This document shows, one piece after another, positions 1 through 64,000 of a DNA stretch of 64,000 nucleotides. Below the pieces are notes generated by a model. The model was not told the DNA's origin, searched no databases, and saw nothing but the letters and a program-made list of their open reading frames with translations. A program made the position numbers and the translations under genes. Numbering within the stretch: position 1 is the first letter of the stretch; each line of letters starts with the position of its first letter. Origin of the DNA: Henricia sp. BOLD:AAB3569 (Eukaryota > Echinodermata > Asteroidea > Spinulosida > Echinasteridae); NCBI GenBank assembly GCA_037783545.1, contig JBBELK010000109.1, forward strand, positions 744,001 to 808,000, written 5' to 3'.

Positions 1-39
1 CATGCTAAGCGAGCGCTCTACCACTTGAGCTAATCCCCC
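1..39 (-). tRNA. tRNA-Ala(AGC), cut by left window edge
   Basis: 5' part of a tRNA up to the anticodon loop; the T arm lies outside the window. What is present matches the reference without change. Confidence 0.8.
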
Positions 40-515
40 GCTGTTGTTGACTGTTGGGCACACTTTAAAAATGTTGTACATACTCAACATTTTCAGATGC
101 ATTGTTCACGGCTCACCATGAGCCGTAAACTCAAAAGAACTCTTGAATTTGGAAGATCCGTGTATTGATCCCGGTACTTCTCGCATGCTAAGCGAGCGCT
201 CTACCACTTGAGCTAATCCCCCGCTGTTGTTGAGTGTTGGGCACACTTTAAAAATGTTGTACATACTCAACATTTTCAGATGCATTGTTCACGGCTCACC
301 ATGAGCCGTAAACTCAGAAGAACTGTTGAATTTGGAAGATCCGGGTATCGATCCCGGTATCTCTCGCATGCAAAGCGAGCGCTCTACCACTTGAGCTAAT
401 CCCACGCTGTTGTTGAGTGTTGGGCACACTTTAAAAATGTTGTACATACTGAACATTTTCAGATGAATTGTTCACGTCTCACCATCAGCCGTAAACTCAA
501 AAGAACTCTTGAATT

Positions 516-588
516 TGGAAGATCCGGGTATCGATCCCGGTACTTCTCGCATGCTAAGCGAGCGCTCTACCACTTGAGCTAATCCCCC
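516..588 (-). tRNA. tRNA-Ala(AGC)
   Basis: All four stems paired as in the reference, both boxes intact, T4 trailer. Its 5' neighbour on the minus strand (699) is also clean, giving an adjacent pair of good AGC genes. Confidence 0.88.
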
Positions 589-698
589 GCTGTTGTTGAG
601 TGTTGGGCACACTTTAAAAATGTTGTACATACTGAACATTTTCAGATGAATTGTTCACGGCTCACCATGAGCCGTAAACTCAAAATAACTCTTGAATT

Positions 699-771
699 TG
701 GAAGATCCGGGTATCGATCCCGGTACTTCTCGCATGCTAAGCGAGCGCTCTACCACTTGAGCTAATCCCCC
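699..771 (-). tRNA. tRNA-Ala(AGC)
   Basis: Reference-like body. The trailer has ATTTTG in place of CTTTTG (plus strand aaaataac), keeping T4. Confidence 0.88.
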
Positions 772-1064
772 GCTGTTGTTGAGCGTTGGGCACACTTTAA
801 AAATGTTGTACATACTGAACATTTTCAGATGAATTGTTCACGGCTCACCATGAGCCGTAAACTCAAAAGAACTCTTGAATTTGGAAGATCCGGGTATCGA
901 TCCTGGTACTTCTCGCATGCTAAGCGGGCGATCTACCACTTGAGCTAATCCCCCGCTGTTGTTGAATGTTGGGCACACTTTAAAAATGTTGTACATACTC
1001 AACATTTTCAGATGCATTGTTCACGGCTCACCATGAGCCGTAAACTCAAAAGAACTCTTAAATT

Positions 1065-1137
1065 TGGAAGATCCGGGTATCGATCCCGGTACTTCTCGCA
1101 TGCAAAGCGAGCGGTCTACCACTTGAGCTAATCCCAG
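1065..1137 (-). pseudogene. tRNA-Ala(TGC), acceptor and D-stem damaged
   Basis: Acceptor 5' strand is CTGGGAT (G1C and G2T), leaving two terminal mismatches, and G24 is C in the D stem (gcggtctac). Same form at 1614, 6187, 19155 and 20363. Confidence 0.8.
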
Positions 1138-1247
1138 GCTGTTGTTGAGTGTTGGGCACACTTTAAAAATGTTGTACATACTGAACATTTTCAGATGAAT
1201 TGTTCACGGCTCACCATGAGCCGTAAACTCAAAATAACTCTTGAATT

Positions 1248-1320
1248 TGGAAGATCCGGGTATCGATCCCGGTACTTCTCGCATGCTAAGCGAGCGCTCT
1301 ACCACTTGAGCTAATCCCCC
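1248..1320 (-). tRNA. tRNA-Ala(AGC)
   Basis: Clean body between two damaged units (1065 with broken acceptor, 1431 with D and anticodon-stem mismatches). Confidence 0.87.
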
Positions 1321-1979
1321 GCTGTTGTTGAGCGTTGGGCACACTTTAAAAATGTTGTACATACTGAACATTTTCAGATGAATTGTTCACGGCTCACCAT
1401 GAGCCGTAAACTCAAAAGAACTCTTGAATTTGGAAGATCCGGGTATCGATCCTGGTACTTCTCGCATGCTAAGCGGGCGATCTACCACTTGAGCTAATCC
1501 CCCGCTGTTGTTGAGTGTTGGGCACACTTTAAAAATGTTGTACATACTCAACATTTTCAGATGCATTGTTCACGGCTCACCATGAGCCGTAAACTCAAAA
1601 GAACTCTTAAATTTGGAAGATCCGGGTATCGATCCCGGTACTTCTCGCATGCAAAGCGAGCGGTCTACCACTTGAGCTAATCCCAGGCTGTTGTTGAGTG
1701 TTGGGCACACTTTAAAAATGTTGTACATACTGAACATTTTCAGATGAATTGTTCACGGCTCACCATGAGCCGTAAACTCAAAAGAACTCTTGAATTTGGA
1801 AGATCCGGGTATCGATCCCGGTACTTCTCGCATGCTAAGCGAGCGCTCTACCACTTGATCTAATCCCCCGCTGTTGTTGAGTGTTTGGCACACTTTAACA
1901 ATGTTGTACACACTGAACATTTTCAGATGAATTGTTCACGACTCACCATGAGCCGTAAACTCAAAAGAACTCTTGAATT

Positions 1980-2052
1980 TGGAAGATCCGGGTATCGATC
2001 CCGGTACTTCTCGCATGCTAAGCGAGCGCTCTACCACTTGAGCTAATCCCCC
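1980..2052 (-). tRNA. tRNA-Ala(AGC)
   Basis: Complete counterpart, one HOR step (2013 bp) away, of the tRNA cut at the left edge. Clean stems. Confidence 0.87.
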
Positions 2053-3441
2053 GCTGTTGTTGACTGTTGGGCACACTTTAAAAATGTTGTACATACTCAA
2101 CATTTTCAGATGCATTGTTCACGGCTCACCATGAGCCGTAAACTCAAAAGAACTCTTGAATTTGGAAGATCCGTGTATTGATCCCGGTACTTCTCGCATG
2201 CTAAGCGAGCGCTCTACCACTTGAGCTAATCCCCCGCTGTTGTTGAGTGTTGGGCACACTTTAAAAATGTTGTACATACTCAACATTTTCAGATGCATTG
2301 TTCACGGCTCACCATGAGCCGTAAACTCAGAAGAACTGTTGAATTTGGAAGATCCGGGTATCGATCCCGGTATCTCTCGCATGCAAAGCGAGCGCTCTAC
2401 CACTTGAGCTAATCCCACGCTGTTGTTGAGTGTTGGGCACACTTTAAAAATGTTGTACATACTGAACATTTTCAGATGAATTGTTCACGTCTCACCATCA
2501 GCCGTAAACTCAAAAGAACTCTTGAATTTGGAAGATCCGGGTATCGATCCCGGTACTTATCGCATGCTAAGCGAGCGCTCTACCACTTGAGCTAATCCCC
2601 GCTGTTGTTGAGTGTTGGGCACACTTTAAAAATGTTGTACATACTGAACATTTTCAGATGAATTGTTCACGGCTCACCATGAGCCGTAAACTCAAAATAA
2701 CTCTTGAATTTGGAAGATCCGGGTATCGATCCCGGTACTTCTCGCATGCTAAGCGAGCGCTCTACCACTTGAGCTAATCCCCCGCTGTTGTTGAGCGTTG
2801 GGCACACTTTAAAAATGTTGTACATACTGAACATTTTCAGATGAATTGTTCACGGCTCACCATGAGCCGTAAACTCAAAAGAACTCTTGAATTTGGAAGA
2901 TCCGGGTATCGATCCTGGTACTTCTCGCATGCTAAGCGGGCGATCTACCACTTGAGCTAATCCCCCGCTGTTGTTGAATGTTGGGCACACTTTAAAAATA
3001 TTGTACATACTCAACATTTTCAGATGCATTGTTCACGGCTCACCATGAGCCGTAAACTCAAAAGAACTCTTGAATTTGGAAGATCCGGGTATCGATCCCG
3101 GTACTTCTCGCATGCTAAGCGAGCGCTCTACCACTTGAGCTAATCCCCGCTGTTGTTGACTGTTGGGCACACTTTAAAAATGTTGTACATACTCAACATT
3201 TTCAGACGCATTGTTCACGGCTCACCATGAGCCGTAAACTCAAAAGAACTCTTGAATTTGGAAGATCCGGGTATCGATCCCGGTACTTCTCGCATGCAAA
3301 GCGAGCGCTCTACCACTTGATCTAATCCCCCGCTGTTGTTGAGTGTTTGGCACACTTTAACAATGTTGTACACACTGAACATTTTCAGATGAATTGTTCA
3401 CGGCTCACCATGAGCCGTAAACTCAAAATAACTCTTGAATT

Positions 3442-3514
3442 TGGAAGATCCGGGTATCGATCCCGGTACTTCTCGCATGCTAAGCGAGCGCTCTACCACT
3501 TGAGCTAATCCCCC
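3442..3514 (-). tRNA. tRNA-Ala(AGC)
   Basis: Clean body with the aaaataac trailer, lying next to 3625, whose acceptor is destroyed. Confidence 0.87.
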
Positions 3515-4173
3515 GCTGTTGTTGAGTGTTGGGCACACTTTAAAAATGTTGTATATACTCAACATTTTCAGATGAATTGTTCACGGCTCACCATGAGCCG
3601 TAAACTTAAAAGAACTCTTGAATTTAAAAGATCCGGGTATCGATCCCGGTACTTCTCGCATGCAAAGCGAGCGCTCTACCACTTGAGTTAATTACCCGCT
3701 GTTGTTGAGTGTTGGGCACACTTTAAAAATGTTGTACATACTCAACATTTTCAGATGAATTGTTCACGTCTCACCATCAGCCGTAAACTCAAAAGAACTC
3801 TTGAATTTGGAAGATCCGGGTATCGATCCCGGTACTTCTCGCATGCTAAGCGAGCGCTCTACCACTTGAGCTATTCCCCCGCTGTTGTTGAGTGTTGGGC
3901 ACACTTTAAAAATGTTGTACATACTGAACATTTTCAGATGAATTGTTCACGGCTCACCATGAGCCGTAAACTCAAAATAACTCTTGAATTTGGAAGATCC
4001 GGGTATCGATCCCGGTACTTCTCGCATGCTAAGCGAGCGCTCTACCACTTGAGCTAATCCCCCGCTGTTGTTGAGCGTTGGGCACACTTTAAAAATGTTG
4101 TACATACTGAACATGTTCAGATGAATTGTTCACGGCTCACCATGAGCCGTAAACTCAAAAGAACTCTTGAATT

Positions 4174-4246
4174 TGGAAGATCCGGGTATCGATCCCGGTA
4201 CTTCTCGCATGCAGAGCGAGCGGTCTACCACTTGAGCTAATCCCAG
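4174..4246 (-). pseudogene. tRNA-Ala with C33
   Basis: Anticodon loop is TCTGCAT: the universally conserved U33 is C, which would impair the U-turn. The acceptor is also damaged (cccagg). C33 also occurs at 28372 and 31414 with otherwise good stems. Confidence 0.8.
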
Positions 4247-5088
4247 GCTGTTGTTGAGTGTTGGGCACACTTTAAAAATGTTGTACATACTGAACATTTT
4301 CAGATGAATTGTTCACGGCTCACCATGAGCCGTAAACTCAAAAGAACTCTTGAATTTGAAAGATCCGGGTATCGATCCCGGTACTTCTCGCATGCAAAGC
4401 GAGCGCTCTACCACTTGAGTTAATTACCCGCTGTTGTTGAGTGTTGGGCACACTTTAAAAATGTTGTACATACTCAACATTTTCAGATGAATTGTTCACG
4501 TCTCACCATCAGCCGTAAACTCAAAAGAACTCTTGAATTTGGAAGATCCGGGTATCGATCCCGGTACTTCTCGCATGCTAAGCGAGCGCTCTACCACTTG
4601 AGCTAATCCCCCGCTGTTGTTGAGTGTTGGGCACACTTTAAAAATGTTGTACATACTGAACATTTTCAGATGAATTGTTCACGGCTCACCATGAGCCGTA
4701 AACTCAAAAGAACTCTTAAATTTGGAAGATCCGGGTATCGATCCCGGTACTTCTCGCATGCTAAGCGAGCGCTCTACCACTTGAGCTAATCCCCCGCTGG
4801 TGTTGAGTGTTGGGCACACTTTAAAAATGTTGTACATACTGAACATTTTCAGATGAATTGTTCACGGCTCACCATGAGCCGTAAACTCAAAAGAACTCTT
4901 GAATTTGGAAGATCCGGGTATCGATCCCGGTACTTCTCGCATGCAAAGCGAGCGCTCTACCACTTGAGTTAATTACCCGCTGTTGTTGAGTGTTGGGCAC
5001 ACTTTAAAAATGTTGTACATACTCAACATTTTCAGATGAATTGTTCACGTCTCACCATCAGCCGTAAACTCAAAAGAACTCTTGAATT

Positions 5089-5161
5089 TGGAAGATCCGG
5101 GTATCGATCCCGGTACTTCTCGCATGCTAAGCGAGCGCTCTACCACTTGAGCTAATCCCCC
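5089..5161 (-). tRNA. tRNA-Ala(AGC)
   Basis: Clean body in the 549-bp sub-repeat. The trailer side holds the double-changed form of inverted repeat 2 (cgtctcaccatcag), so the palindrome is not needed for a sound tRNA. Confidence 0.87.
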
Positions 5162-6369
5162 GCTGTTGTTGAGTGTTGGGCACACTTTAAAAATGTTGTA
5201 CATACTGAAAATTTTCAGATGAATTGTTCACGGCTCACCATGAGCCGTAAACTCAAAAGAACTCTTAAATTTGGAAGATCCGGGTATCGATCCCGGTACT
5301 TCTCGCATGCTAAGCGAGCGCTCTACCACTTGAGCTAATCCCCCGCTGGTGTTGAGTGTTGGGCACACTTTAAAAATGTTGTACATACTGAACATTTTCA
5401 GATGAATTGTTCACGGCTCACCATGAGCCGTAAACTCAAAAGAACTCTTGAATTTGGAAGATCCGGGTATCGATCCTGGTACTTCTCGCATGCTAAGCGA
5501 GCGATCTACCACTTGAGCTAATTCCCCGCTGTTGTTGAGTGTTGGGCACACTTTAAAAATGTTGTACATACTCAACATTTTCAGATGAATTGTTCACGGC
5601 TCACCATGAGCCGTAAACTCAAAAGAACTCTTGAATTTGAAAGATCCGGGTATCGATCCAGGTACTTCTCGCATGCAAAGCGAGCGCTCTACTACTAGAG
5701 TTAATTACCCGCTGTTGTTGAGTGTTGGGCACACTTTAAAAATGTTGTACATACTCAACATTTTCAGATGAATTGTTCACGTCTCACCATCAGCCGTAAA
5801 CTCAAAAGAACTCTTGAATTTGGAAGATCCGGGTATCGATCCCGGTACTTCTCGCATGCTAAGCGAGCGCTCTCCCACTTGAGCTAATCCCCCGCTGTTG
5901 TTGAGTGTTGGGCACACTTTAAAAATGTTGTACATACTGAACATTTTCAGATGAATTGTTCACGGCTCACCATGAGCCGTAAACTCATAAGAACTCTTGA
6001 ATTTGGAAGATCCGGGTATCGATCCCGGTACTTCTCGCATGCAAAACGAGCGCACTACCACTTGAGCTAATCCCCCGCTGTTGTTGAGTGTTGGGCACAC
6101 TTTAAAAATGTTGTACATACTCAACATTTTCAGATGAATTGTTCACGGCTCACCATGAGCCGTAAACTCAAAAGAACTCTTAAATTTGGAAGATCCGGGT
6201 ATCGATCCTGGTACTTCTCGCATGCAAAGCGAGCGGTCTACCACTTGAGCTAATCCCAGGCTGTTGTTGAGTGTTGGGCACACTTTAAAAATGTTGTACA
6301 TACTGAACATTTTCAGATGAATTGTTCACGGCTCACCATGAGCCGTAAACTCAAAAGAACTCTTGAATT

Positions 6370-6442
6370 TGGAAGATCCGGGTATCGATCCCGGTACTTC
6401 TCGCATGCAAAGCGAGCGCTCTACCACTTGAGCTAATCCCCC
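6370..6442 (-). tRNA. tRNA-Ala(TGC)
   Basis: Same body as AGC copies with one change at position 34 (loop TTTGCAT). This anticodon reads GCA and GCG. First fully clean TGC copy from the left. Confidence 0.88.
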
Positions 6443-6552
6443 GCTGTTGTTGAGTATTGGGCACACTTTAAAAATGTTGTACATACTGAACATTTTCAGA
6501 TGAATTGTTCACGGCTCACCATGAGCCGTAAACTCAAAAGAAGTCTTGAATT

Positions 6553-6625
6553 TGGAAGATCCGGGTATCGATCCCGGTACTTCTCGCATGCAAAGCGAGC
6601 GCTCTACCACTGGAGCTAATCCCCC
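6553..6625 (-). pseudogene. tRNA-Ala(TGC) with C14, A-box mutant subfamily
   Basis: All stems pair but A14 is C (ccactggagc). The form recurs in more than twenty units, for example 8246, 9778, 20912, 24459, 32835, 36978, 38216, 42642, 43922, 45723 and 46455. Loss of the invariant A of the A box predicts weak TFIIIC binding and poor folding, yet the form was amplified. Confidence 0.7.
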
Positions 6626-6714
6626 GCTGTTGTTGAGTGTTGGGCACACTTTAAAAATGTTGTACATACTCAACATTTTCAGATGCATTGTTCACGGCTA
6701 AGAACTCTTGAATT

Positions 6715-6787
6715 TGGAAGATCCGGGTATCGATCCCGGTACTTCTCGCATGCAAAGCGAGCGCTCTACCACTTGAGCTAATCCCCC
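6715..6787 (-). tRNA. tRNA-Ala(TGC) with lost primary terminator
   Basis: Clean body, but a 21-bp deletion (junction cggctaagaac) removes the T4 run and half of inverted repeat 2 just past its 3' end. Transcription would run on to the next T run in the spacer. Recurs at 8408, 9940, 11633, 13165 and 14858. Confidence 0.83.
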
Positions 6788-6901
6788 GCTGTTGTTGAGT
6801 GTTGGGCACACTTTAAAAATGTTGTACATACTGAACATTTTCAGATGAATTGTTCACGGCTCACCATCAGCCGTAAACTCAAAAGAACTCTTGAATTTGC
6901 A

Positions 6902-6949
6902 TACTTCTCGCATGCAAAGCGAGCGCTCTACCACTTGAGCTAATCCCCC
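6902..6949 (-). pseudogene. tRNA-Ala remnant without T arm (162-bp unit)
   Basis: A 21-bp deletion removes the 3' acceptor strand and T arm, including the B box; the junction reads aatttgcatacttc. The 5' half, anticodon TGC included, is intact. Recurs at 7795, 9326, 10127, 11020, 12551, 13352, 14245, 15776, 21575 and 25122. Confidence 0.88.
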
Positions 6950-7059
6950 GCTGTTGTTGAGTGTTGGGCACACTTTAAAAATGTTGTACATACTGAACAT
7001 TTTCAGATGAATTGTTCACGGCTCACCATGAGCCGTAAACTCAAAAGAACTCTTGAATT

Positions 7060-7131
7060 TGGAAGATCCGGGTATCTATCCCGGTACTTCTCGCATGCTA
7101 AGCGAGCGCTTACCACTTGAGCTAACCCCCC
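7060..7131 (-). pseudogene. tRNA-Ala(AGC), D-stem deletion form
   Basis: One base is lost in the D stem (gcgcttaccac for gcgctctaccac), leaving three pairs, and the B box carries a change (ctatcc). A6G is tolerated as G:U. Typical of AGC copies in the 3225-bp HOR (7953, 8591, 9485) and in 40309-47918. Confidence 0.78.
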
Positions 7132-7225
7132 GCTGTTGTTGAGTGTTGGGCACACTTTAAAAATGTTGTACATACTCAACATTTTCAGATGAATTGTTCA
7201 CGGCTCACCATGAGCCGTAAACTCT

Positions 7226-7228
7226 AAA
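7226..7228 (-). terminator. Weakened (T3) terminator variant
   Basis: The word actctaaagaac leaves only TTT after the TGC copy at 7242. The same form follows 8773, 10467, 11998, 13692, 15223, 40491, 41728, 42459, 43739, 44664, 45723, 47369, 48100 and 63931. Read-through to the T5 run in the next spacer is likely. Confidence 0.65.
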
Positions 7229-7424
7229 GAACTCTTGAATTTGGAAGATCCGGGTATCGATCCCGGTACTTCTCGCATGCAAAGCGAGCGATCTACCACT
7301 TGAGTTAATCCCCCGCTGTTGTTGAGTGTTGGGCACACTTTAAAAATGTTGTACATACTCAACATTTTCAGATGCATTGTTCACGGCTCACCATGAGCCG
7401 TAAACTCAAAAGAACTCTTGAATT

Positions 7425-7497
7425 TGGAAGATCCGGGTATCGATCCCGGTACTTCTCGCATGCTAAGCGAGCGCTCTACCACTTGAGCTAATCCCCC
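7425..7497 (-). tRNA. tRNA-Ala(AGC), 3225-bp HOR copy 1
   Basis: Clean body with T4 trailer. HOR partners at 10650 and 13875, and in the other half-repeat at 8956, 12181 and 15406. Confidence 0.88.
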
Positions 7498-8955
7498 GCT
7501 GTTGTTGAGTGTTGGGCACACTTTAAAAATGTTGTACATACTCAACATTTTCAGATGCATTGTTCAAGGCTCACCATGAGCCGTAAACTCAAAAGAACTC
7601 TTGAATTTGGAAGATCCGGGTATCGATCCCGGTACTTCTCGCATGCAAAGCGAGCGCTCTACCACTTGAGCTAATCCCAGGCTGTTGTTGAGTGTTGGGC
7701 ACACTTTAAAAATGTTGTACATACTGAACATTTTCAGATGAATTGTTCACGGCTCACCATCAGCCGTAAACTCAAAAGAACTCTTGAATTTGCATACTTC
7801 TCGCATGCAAAGCGAGCGCTCTACCACTTGAGCTAATCCCCCGCTGCTGTTGAGTGTTGGAAACACTATAAAAATGTTGTACATACTGAACATTTTCAGA
7901 TGAATTGTTCACGGCTCACCATGAGCCGTCAACTCAAAAGAACTCTTGAATTTGGAAGATCCGGGTATCGATCCCGGTACTTCTCGCATGCTAAGCGAGC
8001 GCTTACCACTTGAGCTAACCCCCCACTGTTGTTGAGTGTAAACTCAAAAGAACTCTTGAATTTGGAAGATCCGGGTATCGATCCCGGTACTTCTCGCATG
8101 CAAAGCGAGCGGTCTACCACTTGAGCTAATCCCCCGCTGTTGTTGAGTGTTGGGCACACTTTAAAAATGTTGTACATACTGAACATTTTCAGATGAATTG
8201 TTCACGGCTCACCATGAGCCGTAAACTCAAAAGAAGTCTTGAATTTGGAAGATCCGGGTATCGATCCCGGTACTTCTCGCATGCAAAGCGAGCGCTCTAC
8301 CACTGGAGCTAATCCCCCGCTGTTGTTGAGTGTTGGGCACACTTTAAAAATGTTGTACATACTCAACATTTTCAGATGCATTGTTCACGGCTAAGAACTC
8401 TTGAATTTGGAAGATCCGGGTATCGATCCCGGTACTTCTCGCATGCAAAGCGAGCGCTCTACCACTTGAGCTAATCCCCCGCTGTTGTTGAGTGTTGGGC
8501 ACACTTTAAAAATGTTGTACATACTGAACATTTTCAGATGAATTGTTCACGGCTCACCATGAGCCGTAAACTCAAAAGAACTCTTGAATTTGGAAGATCC
8601 GGGTATCTATCCCGGTACTTCTCGCATGCTAAGCGAGCGCTTACCACTTGAGCTAACCCCCCACTGTTGTTGAGTGTTGGGCACACTTTAAAAATGTTGT
8701 ACATACTCAACATTTTCAGATGAATTGTTCACGGCTCACCATGAGCCGTAAACTCTAAAGAACTCTTGAATTTGGAAGATCCGGGTATCGATCCCGGTAC
8801 TTCTCGCATGCAAAGCGAGCGATCTACCACTTGAGTTAATCCCCCGCTGTTGTTGAGTGTTGGGCACACTTTAAAAATGTTGTACATACTCAACATTTTC
8901 AGATGCATTGTTCACGGCTCACCATGAGCCGTAAACTCAAAAGAACTCTTGAATT

Positions 8956-9028
8956 TGGAAGATCCGGGTATCGATCCCGGTACTTCTCGCATGCTAAGCG
9001 AGCGCTCTACCACTTGAGCTAATCCCCC
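8956..9028 (-). tRNA. tRNA-Ala(AGC), 3225-bp HOR copy 1, second half
   Basis: Clean; 1531 bp from its partner in the first half. Confidence 0.88.
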
Positions 9029-9594
9029 GCTGTTGTTGAGTGTTGGGCACACTTTAAAAATGTTGTACATACTCAACATTTTCAGATGCATTGTTCAAGG
9101 CTCACCATGAGCCGTAAACTCAAAAGAACTCTTGAATTTGGAAGATCCGGGTATCGATCCCGGTACTTCTCGCGTGCAAAGCGAGCGCTCTACCACTTGA
9201 GCTAATCCCAGGCTGTTGTTGAGTGTTGGGCACACTTTAAAAATGTTGTACATACTGAACATTTTCAGATGAATTGTTCACGGCTCACCATCAGCCGTAA
9301 ACTCAAAAGAACTCTTGAATTTGCATACTTCTCGCATGCAAAGCGAGCGCTCTACCACTTGAGCTAATCCCCCGCTGCTGTTGAGTGTTGGAAACACTAT
9401 AAAAATGTTGTACATACTGAACATTTTCAGATGAATTGTTTCACGGCTCACCATGAGCCGTCAACTCAAAAGAACTCTTGAATTTGGAAGATCCGGGTAT
9501 CGATCCCGGTACTTCTCGCATGCTAAGCGAGCGCTTACCACTTGAGCTAACCCCCCACTGTTGTTGAGTGTAAACTCAAAAGAACTCTTGAATT

Positions 9595-9667
9595 TGGAAG
9601 ATCCGGGTATCGATCCCGGTACTTCTCGCATGCAAAGCGAGCGCTCTACCACTTGAGCTAATCCCCC
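9595..9667 (-). tRNA. tRNA-Ala(TGC), close-spaced pair member
   Basis: Clean body. Only 38 bp separates it from the damaged AGC copy ending at 9556 because the spacer between them is deleted. Its partner at 8063 has C24 in the D stem, which tells the two half-repeats apart. Confidence 0.86.
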
Positions 9668-52387: not shown

Positions 52388-52401
52388 CAGATGAATTGTT
52401 C

Positions 52402-52420: not shown

Positions 52421-52426
52421 AAACTC

Positions 52427-53724: not shown

Positions 53725-53797
53725 TGGAAGATCCGGGTATCGATCCCGGTACTTCTCGCATGCTAAGCGAGCGCTCTACCACTTGAGCTAATCCCCC
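53725..53797 (-). tRNA. tRNA-Ala(AGC)
   Basis: Clean. The upstream spacer has gtagggaacac in place of gttgggcacac, a form that accompanies AGC copies at 54274, 55921, 56653 and 58300. Confidence 0.9.
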
Positions 53798-54822
53798 GCT
53801 GTTGTTGAGTGTAGGGAACACTTTAAAAATGTTGTACATACTGAACATTTTCAGATGAATTGTTCACGGCTCACCATGAGCCGTAAACTCAAAAGAACTC
53901 TTGAATTTGGAAGATCCGGGTATCGATCCCGGTACTTCTCGCATGCAAAGCGAGCGCTCTACCACTTGAGCTAATCCCCCGCTGTTGTTGAGTGTTGGGC
54001 ACACTTTAAAAATGTTGTACATACTCAACATTTTCAGATGAATTGTTCACGGCTCACCATGAGCCGTAAACTCAAAAGAACTCTTGAATTTGGAAGATCC
54101 GGGTATCGATCCCGGTACTTCTCGCATGCAAAGCGAGCGCTCTACCACTTGAGCTAATCCCCCGCTGTTGTTGAGTGTTGGGCACACTTTAAAAATGTTG
54201 TACATACTCAACATTTTCAGATGAATTGTTCACGGTTCACCATGAGCCGTAAATTCAAAAGAACTCTTGAATTTGGAAGATCCGGGTATCGATCCCGGTA
54301 CTTCTCGCATGCTAAGCGAGCGCTCTACCACTTGAGCTAATCCCCCGCTGTTGTTGAGTGTAGGGAACACTTTAAAAATGTTGTACATACTGAACATTTT
54401 CAGATGAATTGTTCACGGCTCACCATGAGCCGTAAACTCAAAAGAACTCTTGAATTTGGAAGATCCGGGTATCGATCCCGGTACTTCTCGCATGCAAAGC
54501 GAGCGCTCTACCACTTGAGCTAATCCCCCGCTGTTGTTGAGTGTTGGGCACACTTTAAAAATGTTGTACATACTCAACATTTTCAGATGAATTGTTCACG
54601 GCTCACCATGAGCCGTAAACTCAAAAGAACTCTTGAATTTGGAAGATCCGGGTATCGATCCCGGTACTTCTCGCATGCAAAGCGAGCGGTCTACCACTTG
54701 AGCTAATCCCCCGCTGTTGTTGAGTGTTGGGCACACTTTAAAAATGTTGTACATACTCAACATTTTCAGATGAATTGTTCACGGCTCACCATGAGCCGTA
54801 AACTCAAAAGAACTCTTGAATT

Positions 54823-54895
54823 TGGAAGATCCGGGTATCGATCCCGGTACTTCTCGCATGCAAAGCGAGCGCTCTACCACTTGAGCTAATCCCCC
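54823..54895 (-). tRNA. tRNA-Ala(TGC)
   Basis: Clean; its upstream inverted repeat 1 is broken by the gaaaatttt form. Confidence 0.9.
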
Positions 54896-55188
54896 GCTGT
54901 TGTTGAGTGTTGGGCACACTTTAAAAATGTTGTACATACTGAAAATTTTCAGATGAATTGTTCACGGCTCACCATGAGCCGTAAACTCAAAAGAACTCTT
55001 GAATTTGGAAGATCCGGGTATCGATCCCGGTACTTCTCGCATGCAAAGCGAGCGCTCTACCACTTGAGCTAATCCCCCGCTGTTGTTGAGTGTTGGGCAC
55101 ACTTTAAAAATGTTATACATACTGAACATTTTCAGATGAATTGTTCAGGGCTCACCATGAGCCGTGAACTCAAAAAAACTCTTGAATT

Positions 55189-55261
55189 TGGAAGATCCGG
55201 GTATCGATCCCGGTACTTCTCGCATGCTAAGCGAGCGCTCTACCACTTGAGCTAATCCCCC
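55189..55261 (-). tRNA. tRNA-Ala(AGC) with T7 terminator
   Basis: Clean body; the trailer has seven T residues (plus strand caaaaaaactc), stronger than the usual T4. Same form at 57568, 59215, 60862 and 62326. Confidence 0.9.
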
Positions 55262-55554
55262 GCTGTTGTTGAGTGTTGGGCACACTTTAAAAATGTTGTA
55301 CATACTCAACATTTTCAGATGAATTGTTCACGGCTCACCATGAGCCGTAAACTCAACAGAACTCTTGAATTTGGAAGATCCGGGTATCGATCCCGGTACT
55401 TCTCGCATGCAAAGCGAGCGCTCTACCACTTGAGCTAATCCCCCGCTGTTGTTGAGTGTTGGGCACACTTTAAAAATGTTGTACATACTGAAAATTTTCA
55501 GATGAATTGTTCACGGCTCACCATGAGCCGTAAACTTAAAAGAACTCTTGAATT

Positions 55555-55627
55555 TGGAAGATCCGGGTATCGATCCCGGTACTTCTCGCATGCAAAGCGA
55601 GCGCTCTATCACTTGAGCTAATCCCCC
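55555..55627 (-). pseudogene. tRNA-Ala(TGC) with A19
   Basis: D loop is AAGTGATA: G19, which pairs with C56 in the T loop and belongs to the A box, is A. All else is clean. Partner 57934 shares it. Confidence 0.65.
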
Positions 55628-56652
55628 GCTGTTGTTGAGTGTTGGGCACACTTTAAAAATGTTGTACATACTCAACATTTTCAGATGAATTGTTCACGGC
55701 TCACCATGAGCCGTAAACTCAAAAGAACTCTTGAATTTGGAAGATCCGGGTATCGATCCCGGTACTTCTCGCATGCAAAGCGAGCGCTCTACCACTTGAG
55801 CTAATCCCCCGCTGTTGTTGAGTGTAGGGAACACTTTAAAAATGTTGTACATACTCAACATTTTCAGTTGCATTGTTCACGGCTCACCATGAGCCGTAAA
55901 CTCAAAAGAACTCTTGAATTTGGAAGATCCGGGTATCGATCCCGGTACTTCTCGCATGCTAAGCGAGCGCTCTACCACTTGAGCTAATCCCCCGCTGTTG
56001 TTGAGTGTAGGGAACACTTTAAAAATGTTGTACATACTGAACATTTTCAGATGAATTGTTCACGGCTCACCATGAGCCGTAAACTCAAAAGAACTCTTGA
56101 ATTTGGAAGATCCGGGTATCGATCCCGGTACTTCTCGCATGCAAAGCGAGCGCTCTACCACTTGAGCTAATCCCCCGCTGTTGTTGAGTGTTGGGCACAC
56201 TTTAAAAATGTTATACATACTGAAAATTTTCAGATGAATTGTTCACGGCTCACCATGAGCCGTAAACTTAAAAGAACTCTTGAATTTGGAAGATCCGGGT
56301 ATCGATCCCGGTACTTCTCGCATGCAAAGCGAGCGCTCTACCACTTGAGCTAATCCCCCGCTGTTGTTGAGTGTTGGGCACACTTTAAAAATGTTGTACA
56401 TACTCAACATTTTCAGATGAATTGTTCACGGTTCACCATGAGCCGTAAACTCAAAAGAACTCTTGAATTTGGAAGATCCGGGTATCGATCCCGGTACTTC
56501 TCGCATGCAAAGCGAGCGCTCTACCACTTGAGCTAATCCCCCGCTGTTGTTGAGTGTTGGGCACACTTTAAAAATGTTGTACATACTCAACATTTTCAGA
56601 TGAATTGTTCACGGTTCACCATGAGCCGTAAATTCAAAAGAACTCTTGAATT

Positions 56653-56725
56653 TGGAAGATCCGGGTATCGATCCCGGTACTTCTCGCATGCTAAGCGAGC
56701 GCTCTACCACTTGAGCTAATCCCCC
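56653..56725 (-). tRNA. tRNA-Ala(AGC), 2379-bp HOR copy 2
   Basis: Clean; partner 54274. Confidence 0.9.
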
Positions 56726-58848
56726 GCTGTTGTTGAGTGTAGGGAACACTTTAAAAATGTTGTACATACTGAACATTTTCAGATGAATTGTTCACGGCTC
56801 ACCATGAGCCGTAAACTCAAAAGAACTCTTGAATTTGGAAGATCCGGGTATCGATCCCGGTACTTCTCGCATGCAAAGCGAGCGCTCTACCACTTGAGCT
56901 AATCCCCCGCTGTTGTTGAGTGTTGGGCACACTTTAAAAATGTTGTACATACTCAACATTTTCAGATGAATTGTTCACGGCTCACCATGAGCCGTAAACT
57001 CAAAAGAACTCTTGAATTTGGAAGATCCGGGTATCGATCCCGGTACTTCTCGCATGCAAAGCGAGCGGTCTACCACTTGAGCTAATCCCCCGCTGTTGTT
57101 GAGTGTTGGGCACACTTTAAAAATGTTGTACATACTCAACATTTTCAGATGAATTGTTCACGGCTCACCATGAGCCGTAAACTCAAAAGAACTCTTGAAT
57201 TTGGAAGATCCGGGTATCGATCCCGGTACTTCTCGCATGCAAAGCGAGCGCTCTACCACTTGAGCTAATCCCCCGCTGTTGTTGAGTGTTGGGCACACTT
57301 TAAAAATGTTGTACATACTGAAAATTTTCAGATGAATTGTTCACGGCTCACCATGAGCCGTAAACTCAAAAGAACTCTTGAATTTGGAAGATCCGGGTAT
57401 CGATCCCGGTACTTCTCGCATGCAAAGCGAGCGCTCTACCACTTGAGCTAATCCCCCGCTGTTGTTGAGTGTTGGGCACACTTTAAAAATGTTATACATA
57501 CTGAACATTTTCAGATGAATTGTTCAGGGCTCACCATGAGCCGTGAACTCAAAAAAACTCTTGAATTTGGAAGATCCGGGTATCGATCCCGGTACTTCTC
57601 GCATGCTAAGCGAGCGCTCTACCACTTGAGCTAATCCCCCGCTGTTGTTGAGTGTTGGGCACACTTTAAAAATGTTGTACATACTCAACATTTTCAGATG
57701 AATTGTTCACGGCTCACCATGAGCCGTAAACTCAACAGAACTCTTGAATTTGGAAGATCCGGGTATCGATCCCGGTACTTCTCGCATGCAAAGCGAGCGC
57801 TCTACCACTTGAGCTAATCCCCCGCTGTTGTTGAGTGTTGGGCACACTTTAAAAATGTTGTACATACTGAAAATTTTCAGATGAATTGTTCACGGCTCAC
57901 CATGAGCCGTAAACTTAAAAGAACTCTTGAATTTGGAAGATCCGGGTATCGATCCCGGTACTTCTCGCATGCAAAGCGAGCGCTCTATCACTTGAGCTAA
58001 TCCCCCGCTGTTGTTGAGTGTTGGGCACACTTTAAAAATGTTGTACATACTCAACATTTTCAGATGAATTGTTCACGGCTCACCATGAGCCGTAAACTCA
58101 AAAGAACTCTTGAATTTGGAAGATCCGGGTATCGATCCCGGTACTTCTCGCATGCAAAGCGAGCGCTCTACCACTTGAGCTAATCCCCCGCTGTTGTTGA
58201 GTGTAGGGAACACTTTAAAAATGTTGTACATACTCAACATTTTCAGTTGCATTGTTCACGGCTCACCATGAGCCGTAAACTCAAAAGAACTCTTGAATTT
58301 GGAAGATCCGGGTATCGATCCCGGTACTTCTCGCATGCTAAGCGAGCGCTCTACCACTTGAGCTAATCCCCCGCTGTTGTTGAGTGTAGGGAACACTTTA
58401 AAAATGTTGTACATACTGAACATTTTCAGATGAATTGTTCACGGCTCACCATGAGCCGTAAACTCAAAAGAACTCTTGAATTTGGAAGATCCGGGTATCG
58501 ATCCCGGTACTTCTCGCATGCAAAGCGAGCGCTCTACCACTTGAGCTAATCCCCCGCTGTTGTTGAGTGTTGGGCACACTTTAAAAATGTTATACATACT
58601 GAAAATTTTCAGATGAATTGTTCACGGCTCACCATGAGCCGTAAACTTAAAAGAACTCTTGAATTTGGAAGATCCGGGTATCGATCCCGGTACTTCTCGC
58701 ATGCAAAGCGAGCGCTCTACCACTTGAGCTAATCCCCCGCTGTTGTTGAGTGTTGGGCACACTTTAAAAATGTTGTACATACTCAACATTTTCAGATGAA
58801 TTGTTCACGGTTCACCATGAGCCGTAAACTCAAAAGAACTCTTGAATT

Positions 58849-58921
58849 TGGAAGATCCGGGTATCGATCCCGGTACTTCTCGCATGCAAAGCGAGCGCTC
58901 TACCACTTGAGCTAATCCCCC
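58849..58921 (-). tRNA. tRNA-Ala(TGC), end of the 2379-bp HOR
   Basis: Clean; right of it the spacer changes to the gatgcattg form, closing the HOR block. Confidence 0.89.
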
Positions 58922-59031
58922 GCTGTTGTTGAGTGTTGGGCACACTTTAAAAATGTTGTACATACTCAACATTTTCAGATGCATTGTTCACGGCTCACCA
59001 TGAGCCGTAAACTCAAAAGAACTCTTGAATT

Positions 59032-59104
59032 TGGAAGATCCGGGTATCGATCCCGGTACTTCTCTCATGCAAAGCGAGCGCTCTACCACTTGAGCTAATC
59101 CCCC
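59032..59104 (-). pseudogene. tRNA-Ala(TGC), anticodon-stem mismatch
   Basis: tctctcatgc gives A40, leaving a G30:A40 mismatch in the anticodon stem. Confidence 0.65.
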
Positions 59105-60129
59105 GCTGTTGTTGAGTGTTGGGCACACTTTAAAAATGTTATACATACTGAACATTTTCAGATGAATTGTTCACGGCTCACCATGAGCCGTGAACTCAAA
59201 AAAACTCTTGAATTTGGAAGATCCGGGTATCGATCCCGGTACTTCTCGCATGCTAAGCGAGCGCTCTACCACTTGAGCTAATCCCCCGCTGTTGTTGAGT
59301 GTTGGGTACACTTTAAAAATGTTGTACATACTCAACATTTTCAGATGCATTGTTCACGGCTCACCATGAGCCGTAAACTCAAAAAAACTCTTGAATTTGG
59401 AAGATCCGGGTATCGATCCCGGTACTTCTCGCATGCAAAGCGAGCGCTCTACCACTTGAGCTAATCCCCCGCTGTTGTTGAGTGTTGGGCACACTTTAAA
59501 AATGTTGTACATACTGAAAATTTACAGATGAATTGTTCACGGCTCACCATGAGCCGTAAACTCAAAAGAACTCTTGAATTTGGAAGATCCGGGTATCGAT
59601 CCCGGTACTTCTCGCATGCAAAGCGAGCGGTCTACCACTTGAGCTAATCCCCCGCTGTTGTTGAGTGTTGGGCACACTTTAAAAATGTTGTACATACTCA
59701 ACATTTTCAGATGAATTGTTCACGGCTCACCATGAGCCGTAAACTCAAAAGAACTCTTGAATTTGGAAGATCCGGGTATCGATCCCGGTACTTCTCGCAT
59801 GCAAAGCGAGCGCTCTACCACTTGAGCTAATCCCCCGCTGTTGTTGAGTGTTGGGCACACTTTAAAAATGTTGTACATACTGAAAATTTTCAGATGAATT
59901 GTTCACGGCTCACCATGAGCCGTAAACTCAAAAGAACTCTTGAATTTGGAAGATCCGGGTATCGATCCCGGTACTTCTCGCATGCAAAGCGAGCGCTCTA
60001 CCACTTGAGCTAATCCCCCGCTGTTGTTGAGTGTTGGGCACACTTTAAAAATGTTATACATACTGAACATTTTCAGATGAATTGTTCAGGGCTCACCATG
60101 AGCCGTGAACTCAAAAAAACTCTTGAATT

Positions 60130-60202
60130 TGGAAGATCCGGGTATCGATCCCGGTACTTCTCGCATGCTAAGCGAGCGCTCTACCACTTGAGCTATTCCC
60201 CT
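60130..60202 (-). pseudogene. tRNA-Ala(AGC), acceptor damaged
   Basis: The acceptor 5' strand reads AGGGGAA: pairs 1 and 7 fail. The T7 terminator and the remaining stems are fine. Confidence 0.75.
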
Positions 60203-60861
60203 GCTGTTGTTGAGTGTTGGGCACACTTTAAAAATGTTGTACATACTCAACATTTTCAGATGAATTGTTCACGGCTCACCATGAGCCGTAAACTCAAAAG
60301 AACTCTTGAATTTGGAAGATCCGGGTATCGATCCCGGTACTTCTCGCATGCAAAGCGAGCGCTCTACCACTTGAGCTAATCCCCCGCTGTTGTTGAGTGT
60401 TGGGCACACTTTAAAAATGTTGTACATACTGAAAATTTTCAGATGAATTGTTCACGGCTCACCATGAGCCGTAAACTTAAAAGAACTCTTGAATTTGGAA
60501 GATCCGGGTATCGATTCCGGTACTTCTCGCATGCAAAGCGAGCGCTCTACCACTTGAGCTAATCCCCCGCTGTTGTTGAGTGTTGGGCACACTTTAAAAA
60601 TGTTGTACATACTGAACATTTTCAGATGAATTGTTCACGGCTCACCATGAGCCGTAAACTCAAAAGAACTCTTGAATTTGGAAGATCCGGGTATCGATCC
60701 CGGTACTTCTCGCATGCAAAGCGAGCGCTCTACCACTTGAGCTAATCCCCCGCTGTTGTTGAGTGTTGGGCACACTTTAAAAATGTTATACATACTGAAC
60801 ATTTTCAGATGAATTGTTCAGGGCTCACCATGAGCCGTGAACTCAAAAAAACTCTTGAATT

Positions 60862-60934
60862 TGGAAGATCCGGGTATCGATCCCGGTACTTCTCGCATGC
60901 TAAGCGAGCGCTCTACCACTTGAGCTAATCCCCC
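60862..60934 (-). tRNA. tRNA-Ala(AGC)
   Basis: Clean with T7 terminator; its 732-bp partner 60130 is damaged in the acceptor stem. Confidence 0.89.
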
Positions 60935-61776
60935 GCTGTTGTTGAGTGTTGGGCACACTTTAAAAATGTTGTACATACTCAACATTTTCAGATGAATTGT
61001 TCACGGCTCACCATGAGCCGTAAACTCAAAAGAACTCTTGAATTTGGAAGATCCGGGTATCGATCCCGGTACTTCTCGCATGCAAAGCGAGCGCTCTACC
61101 ACTTGAGCTAATCCCCCGCTGTTGTTGAGTGTTGGGCACACTTTAAAAATGTTGTACATACTGAAAATTTTCAGATGAATTGTTCACGGCTCACCATGAG
61201 CCGTAAACTTAAAAGAACTCTTGAATTTGGAAGATCCGGGTATCGATCCCGGTACTTCTCGCATGCAAAGCGAGCGCTCTACCACTTGAGCTAATCCCCC
61301 GCTGTTGTTGAGTGTTGGGCACACTTTAAAAATGTTGTACATACTGAACATTTTCAGATGAATTGTTCACGGCTCACCATGAGCCGTAAACTCAAAAGAA
61401 CTCTTGAATTTGGAAGATCCGGGTATCGATCCCGGTACTTCTCGCATGCAAAGCGAGCGCTCTACCACTTGAGCTAATCCCCCGCTGTTGTTGAGTGTTG
61501 GGCACACTTTAAAAATGTTGTACATACTCAACATTTTCAGATGCATTGTTCACGGCTCACCATGAGCCGTAAACTCAAAAGAACTCTTGAATTTGGAAGA
61601 TCCGGGTATCGATCCCGGTACTTCTCGCATGCTAAGCGAGCGCTCTACCACTTGAGCTAATCCCACGCTGTTGTTGAGTGTAGGGCACACTTTAAAAATG
61701 TTGTACATACTCAACATTTTCAGATGCATTGTTCACGGCTCACCATGAGCAGTAAACTCAAAAGAACTCTTGAATT

Positions 61777-61849
61777 TGGAAGATCCGGGTATCGATCAGG
61801 GTACTTCTCGCATGCTAAGCGAGCGCTCTACCACTTGAGCTAATCCCCC
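61777..61849 (-). pseudogene. tRNA-Ala(AGC), T stem and B box damaged
   Basis: gatcaggg replaces gatcccgg, breaking two T-stem pairs beside the B box. Confidence 0.78.
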
Positions 61850-62874
61850 GCTGTTGTTGAGTGTTGGGCACACTTTAAAAATGTTGTACATACTCAACAT
61901 TTTCAGATGAATTGTTCACGGCTCACCATGAGCCGTAAACTCAAAAGAACTCTTGAATTTGGAAGATCCGGGTATCGATCCCGGTACTTCTCGCATGCAA
62001 AGCGAGCGCTCTACCACTTGAGCTAATCCCCCGCTGTTGTTGAGTGTTGGGCACACTTTAAAAATGTTGTACATACTCAACATTTTCAGATGAATTGTTC
62101 ACGGCTCACCAAGAGCCGTAAACTCAAAAGAACTCTTGAATTTGGAAGATCCGGGTATCGATCCCGGTACTTCTCGCACGCTAAGCGAGCGCTCTACCAC
62201 TTGAGCTAATCCCCCGCTGTTGTTGAGTGTAGGGCACACTTTAAACATGTTGTACATACTCAACATTTTCAGATGCATTGTTCACGGCTCACCATGAGCC
62301 GTAAACTCAAAAAAACTCTTGAATTTGGAAGATCCGGGTATCGATCCCGGTACTTCTCGCATGCTAAGCGAGCGCTCTACCACTTGAGCTAATCCCCCGC
62401 TGTTGTTGAGTGTTGGGCACACTTTAAAAATGTTGTACATACTCAACATTTTCAGATGAATTGTTCACGGCTCACCATGAGCCGTAAACTCATAAGAACT
62501 CTTGAATTTGGAAGATCCGGGTATCGATCCCGGTACTTCTCGCATGCTAAGCGAGCGCTCTACCACTTGAGCTAATCCCCCGCTGTTGTTGAGTGTAGGG
62601 CACACTTTAAAAATGTTGTACATACTCAACATTCTCAGATGCATTGTTCACGGCTCACCATGAGCCGTAAACTCAAAAGAACTCTTGAATTTGGAAGATC
62701 CGGGTATCGATCCCGGTACTTCTCGCATGCTAAGCGAGCGATCTACCACTTGAGCTAATCCCCCGCTGTTGTTGAGTGTTGGGCACACTTTAAAAATGTT
62801 GTACATACTCAACATTTTCAGATGAATTGTTCACGGCTCACCATGAGCCGTAAACTCAAAAAAACTCTTGAATT

Positions 62875-62906
62875 TGGAAGATCCGGGTATCTTGAGCTAA
62901 TCCCCC
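62875..62906 (-). pseudogene. tRNA remnant with 41-bp internal deletion
   Basis: The word ccgggtatcttgagc joins the T arm directly to the D arm, removing the anticodon arm. Independent of the 60-bp deletion class. Confidence 0.88.
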
Positions 62907-63382
62907 GCTGTTGTTGAGTGTTGGGCACACTTTAAAAATGTTGTACATACTGAACATTTTCAGATGAATTGTTCACGGCTCACCATGAGCCGTAAACTCA
63001 AAAAAACTCTTGAATTTGGAAGATCCGGGTATCGATGCCGGTACTTCTCGCATGCTAAGCGAGCGCTCTACCACTTGAGCTAATCCCCCGCTGTTGTTGA
63101 GTGTTGGGCACACTTTAAAAATGTTGTACATACTCAACATTTTCAGATGAATTGTTCACGGCTCACCATGAGCCGTAAACTCATAAGAACTCTTGAATTT
63201 GGAAGATCCGGGTATCGATCCCGGTACTTCTCGCATGCTAAGCGAGCGCTCTACCACTTGAGATAATCCCCCGCTGTTGTTGAGTGTAGGGCACACTTTA
63301 AAAATGTTGTACATACTCAACATTTTCAGATGAATTGTTCACGGCTCACCATGAGCCGTAAACTCAAAAGAACTCTTGAATT

Positions 63383-63455
63383 TGGAAGATCCGGGTATCG
63401 ATCCCGGTACTTCTCGCATGCAAAGCGAGCGCTCTACCACTTGAGCTAATCCCCC
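63383..63455 (-). tRNA. tRNA-Ala(TGC), last clean copy
   Basis: Last copy in the window with all stems paired; the neighbours at 63200 and 63566 both have D-stem or acceptor lesions. Confidence 0.87.
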
Positions 63456-64000
63456 GCTGTTGTTGAGTGTTGGGCACACTTTAAAAATGTTGTACATACT
63501 CAACATTTTCAGATGAATTGTTCACGGCTCACCATGAGCCGTAAACTCAAAAGAACTCTTGAATTTGGAAGATCCGGGTATCGATCCCGGTACTTCTCGC
63601 ATGCAAAGCGAGCGGTCTAACACTTGAGCTAATACCCCGCTGTTGTTGAGTGTTGGGCACACTTTAAAAATGTTGTACATACACAACATTTTCAGATGAA
63701 TTGTTCACGGCTCACCATGAGCCGTAAACTCAAAAGAACTCTTGAATTTGGAAGATCCGGGTATCGATCCCGGTACTTCTCGCATGCTAAGCAAGCGCTT
63801 ACCACTTGAGCTAACCCCCCGCTGTTGTTGAGTGTTGGGCACACTTTAAAAATGTTGTACATACTCAACATTTTCAGATGATTTGTTCACGGCTCACCAT
63901 GAGCCGTAAACTCTAAAGAACTCTTGAATTTGGAAGATCCGGGTATCGATCCCGGTACTTCTCGCATGCAAAGCGAGCGCTCTACCACTGGAGCTAATCC

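Follow-up and report, generated by a model that had tools for sequence, protein, structure and literature searches.

This locus raises the question of what a tRNA gene repeated several hundred times in a starfish stands for: a reservoir of genes, a satellite, or a boundary. The window, the whole stretch of 64,000 nt from Henricia analysed here, had been predicted to be, apart from one LINE, a single-orientation satellite of about 350 units of 183 bp, each with a Pol III gene for the same amino acid, arranged in layered higher-order repeats (HORs). Its tRNA-Ala genes, of the Pol III type, do form a tandem array on the scale of a satellite, one of several tRNA arrays in this starfish (Table 1). 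By COX1 the host likewise groups with starfish; COX1 DNA compared with plasmids gave only 47 distant, uninformative records.

A tRNA search of the window had been proposed as the check, and the programs agree. By blastn there are 335 tRNA-Ala segments on the minus strand and none on the plus strand, ARAGORN finds 271 genes, every one tRNA-Ala and on the minus strand, and Rfam gives 305 matches above the gathering score; all 150 of these that are listed are RF00005 on the minus strand, with a top score among them of 56.8 bits. The unit consists of a 73-bp tRNA and a 110-bp spacer. Exactly 183 bp long are 253 of the 335 listed units, which include two cut pieces at the window ends, and the others are mostly 182, 162, 111 or 323 bp. 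When pieces lacking a tRNA are split out, the window holds 346 segments of at least 100 bp, so the predicted number of units was correct. The only LINE-sized interval in the window is 34,979-36,785, as expected from the prediction of a single LINE. Its open frame, stop-to-stop 34,962-36,467, encodes an RVT_1 domain (E 1.3e-25), and AATAAA lies close to its 3' end. The flanks of the insertion site are CTCAAAAGA and TCTTGAATTT; a target duplication was not seen in them, and two target bases are missing, the first base being ambiguous.

The array reaches far beyond the window. It spans positions 625,929-930,476 of the 2.88 Mb contig C109, with edges about 304.5 kb apart, both of which give way abruptly to other DNA. 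Inside the edges all six ten-kb stretches and all 11 of the 400-bp probes were array, outside them none of seven 400-bp probes, and continuity between the sampled pieces is assumed. Extrapolation from a 124-kb sample gives about 1,600 tRNA-Ala copies in the whole array. The single orientation holds for the window; beyond it there are two short plus strand segments, near contig 822.2 kb and 833.2 kb, and the whole array is therefore not strictly one-way. Apart from these it is a long head-to-tail array, as satellite DNA is.

The layered HORs were also present, with lags of 3,225, 2,379 and 3,547 bp. At a lag of 3,225 bp the identity is 99.87%, as compared to about 96% between single units, and the order of the variants in the three copies of this block is the same, apart from the unit that opens copy 1 and the one that closes copy 3 (54 segments listed). 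Broken units are amplified within the HORs just as intact units are. A preferential amplification of intact units has a p of 0.06, 16 of 34 unit types with at least three copies being intact as compared to 31 of 108 singletons. The tRNA searches, the unit lengths and the HORs together bear out the tRNA-Ala satellite.

Table 1. Positions of the features in the window, with the state of the genes in the repeats.
Feature	Position	Strand	Details or evidence
tRNA-Ala tandem array, left part, 183-bp units	1..34978	-	ARAGORN, TRF, Rfam, blastn
tRNA-Ala tandem array, right part	36786..64000	-	ARAGORN, TRF, Rfam, blastn
LINE, 5'-truncated, inserted in spacer	34979..36785	+	sequence, ORF, PF00078, homologs
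18-unit HOR, 3,225 bp, about three copies	6342..15895		intact genes in 14/55 segments
HOR, lag 3,547 bp	20601..26771		99.7% identical; 9/36 segments intact
HOR, lag 2,379 bp	53818..59070		99.7% identical; 23/27 segments intact
Most regular stretch	48482..62891	-	78.8 copies of 183 bp at 97%; 57/78 segments intact
Example tRNA-Ala(AGC) gene	516..588	-	54 bits
Example of the commonest tRNA-Ala(TGC) copy	6370..6442	-	56.8 bits; 77 identical 73-mers in window
Rare Ala copy, CGC anticodon	34258..34330	-
Second Ala copy with CGC anticodon	39,577-39,649

Are the genes in the units still genes? Among the 291 full-length copies in the window the anticodon is TGC in 199, AGC in 90 and CGC in two. All of them are alanine, as predicted, but with three anticodons the term single isoacceptor is inexact. 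G3 and U70, which we take to be the Ala identity element, are present in 290 of the 291. All stems pair in the consensus cloverleaf and in 151 of these copies, the A box is as in the consensus in 232 and the B box in 266, at the positions that we presume for them in the unit, and 261 have TTTT within 25 bases. The unit consensus has a TATA-like TTTTTAAAG 24-32 bases upstream of the gene and TTTT 14-17 bases downstream; that they are a TATA-like element and a terminator is our reading of the unit. The survey of unit variants left two segments longer than 250 bp aside. Intact by every test are 133 of the 346 window segments, with the TTTT terminator in 122 of the 133, and judged in this way the copies do not appear to be nearly all pseudogenes, the outcome that had been named as speaking against the prediction. 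In the 124-kb sample about half of the units, 284 of 595, have an intact gene, counting only units of 100-205 bp (27 of 48 starts in L022, 37 of 49 in L023).

The same assembly contains further tRNA arrays, for Lys+Tyr, for Thr, and two more for Ala, so that the arrayed isotypes are Ala, Lys, Tyr and Thr. There are also genes outside the arrays. The consensus of the C109 array differs from an Ala-AGC gene on C305 at five of 73 sites (34, 40, 45, 68 and 69), of which the state at site 34 is shared with the AGC copies of the array, and none of the five breaks a stem pair or loses Ala decoding. Thus, as in Xenopus, the Ala tRNA of the array differs from a gene outside the arrays and still pairs in all stems. 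The Lys array differs, by eye, from genes on C376 and C453 in the T arm and at site 67. Between C109 and a sister Ala array on C307 the tRNA is 96-97% identical, and the spacer aligns over 41-48 bp only, at about 87%.

Our preferred reading, to which we give an even chance, is that the arrays are reserves of tRNA genes, redundant yet not dead and homogenised in the manner of satellites, perhaps for oogenesis as in Xenopus. The array would have started from a functional Ala gene, like the one that persists outside the arrays on C305, and grown through unequal exchange. Single copies would drift as fast as the spacer because they are dispensable, and the array as a whole would keep its capacity for tRNA synthesis, since over longer times lineages of broken units disappear. 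With less support, and by analogy with the oocyte-type genes of Xenopus, the reserve might be drawn on at the peak of tRNA demand, in oogenesis and the early embryo.

A close rival, possible and short of probable, is a neutral satellite that began when a tandem duplication happened to take in a tRNA gene and that expanded by unequal exchange, the copies being passengers, probably silenced, that add nothing. The variation within the array agrees with this. The Ala tRNA and its spacer vary alike (42/73 as compared to 63/110 variable sites in the window, 49/73 as compared to 79/110 in the 124 kb), and the substitution types in the tRNA were 79 in the 124 kb, where 77.8 were expected. Changes that keep a base pair are not preferred; in the 124 kb 11 pair-keeping and 42 pair-breaking types were seen, as compared to 15.1 and 34.4 predicted from the spacer spectrum, and in the window alone 7 and 36, as compared to 14.5 and 24.7. 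Within the Ala array neither data set gave clear evidence that the tRNA is under selection, and the divergence of tRNA and spacer per unit is not correlated (r -0.10, p 0.10). Within the Lys/Tyr arrays the variability of tRNA and spacer is alike too, so in neither the Ala nor the Lys/Tyr arrays is the tRNA less variable than the spacer, a subset of promoter-box sites hinting otherwise. The broken units in the HORs are also what a neutral satellite would contain.

It is more difficult for the neutral satellite that roughly half of the units sampled still hold an intact gene, and that several isotypes are arrayed, for which a single accident is an insufficient explanation. Furthermore, the tRNA is conserved between the Lys/Tyr arrays, whose two consensuses differ at 1 of 157 tRNA sites as compared to 20 of 436 spacer sites (one-sided Fisher p 0.012, from 21 differences, one array pair, pooled counts and 18 distinct units per array). 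The pooled polymorphism within these arrays is 33 tRNA and 95 spacer sites (contrast p 0.046), where the within- and between-array counts have unlike unit length limits, some loci overlap, and the distinct units (18 + 18) are those that count. The corresponding comparison between Ala arrays was not significant (tRNA 3/73 and spacer 6/48, p 0.15; fixed and polymorphic sites, p 1.0).

A role in chromatin, with the array as a boundary or pericentromeric element that works by TFIIIC binding rather than by its tRNA, seems improbable. Such tDNA boundaries are proposed for human 1q23.3 in the available part of that paper (PMC4041453), and in the 124 kb the A and B box sites vary less than base-matched spacer sites (12 of 23, with 17.2 expected, P 0.005), as do boxes and identity sites together when compared to the rest of the unit (13/27 and 115/156, p 0.012). 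The box signal is, however, weak, as 13 site sets were tried, P is 0.010 for a palindrome set, and the counts of substitution types give P 0.23 and the 27 sites p 0.15 in the window alone. The array stops abruptly at other DNA within its contig. Read from these sites, a boundary function may be given at most a weak hint.

Two other properties of the unit were considered and rejected. CpG bases show no extra decay of the kind that methylation would leave, with transitions at 10 of 18 CpG bases and at 35 of 65 other C/G bases. A palindrome in the spacer (unit positions 98-114) could form a hairpin, but C103G and C112A often occur while the partner base stays the same, which leaves a hairpin role unsupported. 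The palindrome set has somewhat few variable sites. Exact-pattern scans of viral contigs and genome contigs with words from the spacer gave no match. A genome search with the spacer gave nine matches, on C109 and C307 only, which is weak evidence because common words were skipped and most of the array itself was missed.

It is very unlikely that the length of the array and its HORs are in part an artefact of assembly. The mitochondrial contig of the same assembly does have three COX1 copies spaced by 16,221 bp, the pattern that arises when a circle is assembled as a line, but there are 172 distinct sequences among 333 units of the window, a single LINE-sized interval, and other DNA joined at both edges of the array. 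That the unit derives from a tRNA-Ala-derived retroposon is hardly credible, since, although a tRNA with a tail of about 110 bp is by our own reading SINE-sized, the tRNA is intact as far as the discriminator and pairs in every stem of the consensus, the spacer matches only C109 and C307 in the weak search above, and TTTT follows within 17 bases, so that a transcript of the full unit is not expected.

For the tRNA gene reserve there are thus the intact half of the sampled units and the several isotypes. The differences from the C305 gene spare stems and decoding, the tRNA of C307 is kept while its spacer diverges, and the Lys/Tyr tRNA is almost unchanged between arrays despite the polymorphism within them. 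The large tRNA counts of Asterias amurensis and the oocyte-specific genes of Xenopus, both described below, also speak for it. Against it, the tRNA shows no clear selection within arrays, broken units are found in the HORs, and the Ala test between arrays falls short of significance; conversion by other tRNA genes might also mimic constraint. A bolder version, which we hold to be doubtful, is that starfish keep tRNA satellites dedicated to the germ line or maternal supply. There would then be isotype arrays (Ala, Lys+Tyr, Thr, perhaps more) of hundreds to thousands of genes, distinct from the somatic genes and activated in oogenesis, the satellite being a reservoir under selection at the level of the array, within which any single copy may decay. 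Oocytes of starfish are plentiful and long established as study material, so the idea of an oocyte reserve is directly testable.

Tandem tRNA arrays are already known, and a set like that of Henricia was not found in starfish in the titles and abstracts of the literature searched. Two genome papers on Asterias amurensis list, in the parts available, 14,926 and 6,779 tRNAs, which implies that tRNA arrays may be general in starfish and have gone unremarked; unequal assembly of such arrays could account for the distance between the two counts. In the Zoroaster genome paper tRNA is not mentioned, and the accessible part of a brittle-star genome paper mentions only mitochondrial tRNAs. The finding joins satellite DNA and housekeeping gene families, categories usually treated separately, and points to very large stocks of tRNA genes in some animals. 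It also offers a natural test of whether selection on a tandem gene family acts per copy or per whole array.

In comparison with known systems, centromere-type satellites likewise have a unit near nucleosome size and HORs in several layers, whereas the Henricia unit is a Pol III gene and its array, of 0.3 Mb, lies inside a contig. In Xenopus the tandem tRNA unit is about 3.2 kb with several tRNAs, and tRNA genes exist outside the arrays too; Henricia, known from sequence alone, has one Ala gene per 183 bp and the other isotypes in separate arrays. The oocyte-specific tRNA genes of Xenopus are, like the Henricia arrays, tandem and from a large-egged animal, and are reported to be active at genome activation (PMC11500080). 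Entamoeba, as far as the available text goes, also has homogenised tandem tRNA arrays of several isotypes alongside low-copy dispersed genes, but nearly all its tRNA genes are arrayed, in units of up to five genes with STR spacers, and make up more than 10% of the genome (PMC2652664), whereas Henricia is an animal with one- or two-gene units and HORs. The human 1q23.3 tDNA VNTR is, in the same partial source as above, a tandem of tRNA genes in an animal, with GC-rich, CTCF-binding units of 7.3 kb in 9-43 copies (PMC4041453), as compared to 183-bp units and, by extrapolation, more than 1,000 copies in Henricia. The Arabidopsis SYY cluster is described as having tandem tRNA variants unlike the dispersed ones, major and minor copies, and pseudogenes, as in Henricia, with 54 clustered Tyr genes against the extrapolated Ala copies of the starfish array (PMC12308677).

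The window consists of tRNA-Ala genes repeated in tandem on the minus strand, and its single interruption is a LINE. A blastn search with the 73-base gene gave 335 matches on that strand and none on the opposite one, Rfam gave 305 matches above the gathering score (150 of them listed), and ARAGORN called 271 genes, every one a tRNA-Ala on the minus strand. The commonest unit length is 183 bp (253 of the 335 listed units, two of which are pieces cut at the window ends), and the minor lengths are 182, 162, 111 and 323 bp. The 323-bp form has a 140-bp half without most of the tRNA, the 162-bp form lacks either the 3' part of the tRNA or some of the spacer, and the 111-bp form is short of some spacer.

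In the genome assembly (740.7 Mb, 2,104 contigs) the window lies at 744,001-808,000 of contig C109. Array sequence was present in all six ten-kb stretches read inside the array edges, and in 11/11 inner as compared to 0/7 outer probes of 400 bp. From 651 tRNA starts counted in 124 kb, the total can be extrapolated to about 1,600 copies. Two short inverted segments, 10,958 bp apart, were seen near 822.2 and 833.2 kb, and about 200 bp beyond the left edge there is a tRNA-like sequence, perhaps SINE-derived (read stretch L049:3301-3370). The units are also arranged into higher-order repeats. Three consecutive copies of an 18-unit block, 3,225 bp long, carry their unit variants in matching order, except at the opening unit of copy 1 and the closing unit of copy 3. 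The identity at this lag is 99.87%, while units differ from one another by about 4% on average; further lags are 2,379 and 3,547 bp.

Coordinates of the LINE and of the tRNA arrays (C, contigs of the assembly; L, stretches read from them)
Feature	Sequence	Position	Description	Stretches
tRNA-Ala array	C109	edges 625,929 and 930,476	about 304.5 kb, sequence between probes assumed to be array	
5'-truncated LINE	window	34,979-36,785	open reverse-transcriptase frame, 496 codons	
Lys/Tyr array	C109	129-175 kb; again at 180.0 and 186.0 kb	about 593-bp units; none at probes 120.0, 126.0 and 176.0 kb	
Second Lys/Tyr array	C837	8/8 places read, 144-360 kb (three chosen on known matches); 0/7 places, 1-120 kb	584-bp units; >200 kb judged by probes	L002-L004, L051-L053, L066-L070
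tRNA-Thr array	C720	6/6 places, 790-820 kb (one chosen on match)	about 350-bp units	
Ala-CGC genes	C454	41 matches within 7.1 kb	steps of about 162 bp and multiples	L083
Ala-CGC genes	C307	12 matches, 15-55 kb	600 bp apart in the read stretch	L084-L085

The unit consensus encodes a complete tRNA-Ala, with seven acceptor pairs including G3:U70, discriminator A73, and fully paired D, anticodon and T stems. Among the 291 full-length copies in the window, 151 have no mismatched pair, 290 retain G3:U70, 232 the A box and 266 the B box, and 261 have TTTT within 25 bases of the gene. All gene tests were passed jointly by 133 window copies, 122 of these also with a terminator, and in 124 kb of array by 284 of 595 units when the terminator was left out. 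The intact genes are unevenly distributed, 14 of 55 segments at window positions 6,342-15,895 as compared to 57 of 78 at 48,482-62,891. The anticodon is TGC in 199 of the full-length copies, AGC in 90 and CGC in two. AGC is read as inosine, and jointly the three could read all Ala codons.

Within the array, the tRNA is kept no better than the spacer. Variable sites make up 42/73 of the tRNA and 63/110 of the spacer among 155 distinct full units in the window, and 49/73 and 79/110 among the 237 distinct of 553 full units in 124 kb. In the same 124 kb, the spacer spectrum would lead one to expect 77.8 substitution types in the tRNA and 79 were seen; changes that keep stem pairs were not favoured (11 keeping and 42 breaking, expected 15.1 and 34.4). 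Of 13 site sets tried, the A and B boxes had 12/23 variable sites against 17.2 expected for base-matched spacer sites (P 0.005), the boxes plus identity sites 13/27 against 115/156 in the remainder of the unit (p 0.012; 0.15 in the window alone), and a palindrome set gave P 0.010. Substitution-type counts for the boxes gave no signal (P 0.23), and we do not lean on the box sites in our reading. In the Lys/Tyr arrays, tRNA and spacer were likewise equally variable (18 distinct units each).

We take the Ala array, judged from its sequence, to be a reserve of genes that is redundant without being dead. Single copies would be individually dispensable, blocks of units would spread via unequal exchange, and the tRNA would be held over longer times. 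A neutral satellite that carries the gene as a passenger comes close behind. Comparisons between arrays give a different result from those within them. Between the two Lys/Tyr arrays, 20/436 spacer sites and 1/157 tRNA sites of the consensuses differ (one-sided p 0.012), and the sole tRNA difference, Tyr precursor position 42, falls by our reading in the intron. Pooled polymorphism within these arrays covers 33 tRNA and 95 spacer sites, and the contrast with the between-array differences has p 0.046. The Ala genes of C109 and C307 differ at 2-3 of 73 sites, and the alignable part of their spacers is limited to 41-48 bp, with about 87% identity; a conservative count of tRNA against spacer was not significant (p 0.15), nor was fixed against polymorphic (p 1.0). 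The array consensus differs from an Ala-AGC gene on C305 at sites 34, 40, 45, 68 and 69, with all stems still paired. Conservation between arrays could also be produced by gene conversion from other genes.

The Lys/Tyr units carry tRNA-Lys(TTT) on one strand and an intron-containing tRNA-Tyr(GTA) on the other. On C109 this array (129-187 kb) includes an inverted stretch (L001, L005-L008, L012, L047, L078), and GTG (His) stands at the anticodon position of three Tyr copies in L012. ARAGORN called no Tyr on C837, though the Tyr consensus there differs from that of C109 at only one site. The Thr copies at C720:790-821 kb mostly have a CGT anticodon (L057, L071-L075), and the C454 array holds the other Ala gene type. 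It is the spacer of the roughly 600-bp C307 unit that has the 41-48 bp piece in common with the 183-bp unit, which suggests that the short unit may have descended from a longer one. The search that gave the C454 and C307 matches, with 40 of 119 candidates scored, also found Ala genes outside arrays, on C156, C384, C4 (two) and C305 (two). Reading C376 and C453 turned up Lys genes. A separate genome-wide search scored 63 of 135,043 first-look tRNA candidates, and the isotypes found are a lower bound.

The LINE insertion is probably recent, because it is the sole LINE-sized interval in the window; its flanks there showed no target duplication. Among the 120 matches listed of 713, the best have 69% identity over the full length and 79% over 62%, and the named relatives are from Branchiostoma and sea urchins. 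Ten long frames were scanned on C109 outside the array (L011, L017, L021, L028). Five have LINE, LTR-element or DNA-transposon domains, one has a weak DUF6451 match and four have no match.

The mitochondrial contigs C955 and C2104 carry the COX1 of the assembly. Among 15 chosen matches it is closest (table 9) to the starfish Meridiastra gunnii, 93.0%, followed by eight other named starfish at 89.5-92.4%, and sea urchins and a sea cucumber at up to 89.3%. In a FastTree built from 20 selected COX1 proteins of echinoderms and hemichordates, the host falls among starfish (support 0.84), beside Ctenodiscus (0.79). The C955 sequence is itself a tandem, with COX1 present at least three times at a spacing of 16,221 bp (L079-L081). 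This is probably an assembler concatemer, and copy numbers should therefore be treated with caution.

In the literature searched, which covered few subscription papers, we found no satellite-scale array of a single tRNA gene with higher-order repeats for any animal, and no set of isotype arrays for starfish. The Asterias amurensis genome papers give 14,926 and 6,779 tRNAs, with no comment on arrangement in the parts available, and because of these counts such arrays may be common to starfish generally. A 2010 survey still named Entamoeba as the sole case of tandem tRNA arrays (PMC2888827); they are known from Xenopus (PMC11500080), Entamoeba (PMC2652664), human (PMC4041453) and Arabidopsis (PMC12308677). 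The Arabidopsis SYY cluster is described there as mostly silenced, yet expressed in root cap cells (PMC12308677). The best functional parallel comes from Xenopus, whose oocyte-specific tandem tRNA genes are said to switch on at zygotic genome activation (PMC11500080).
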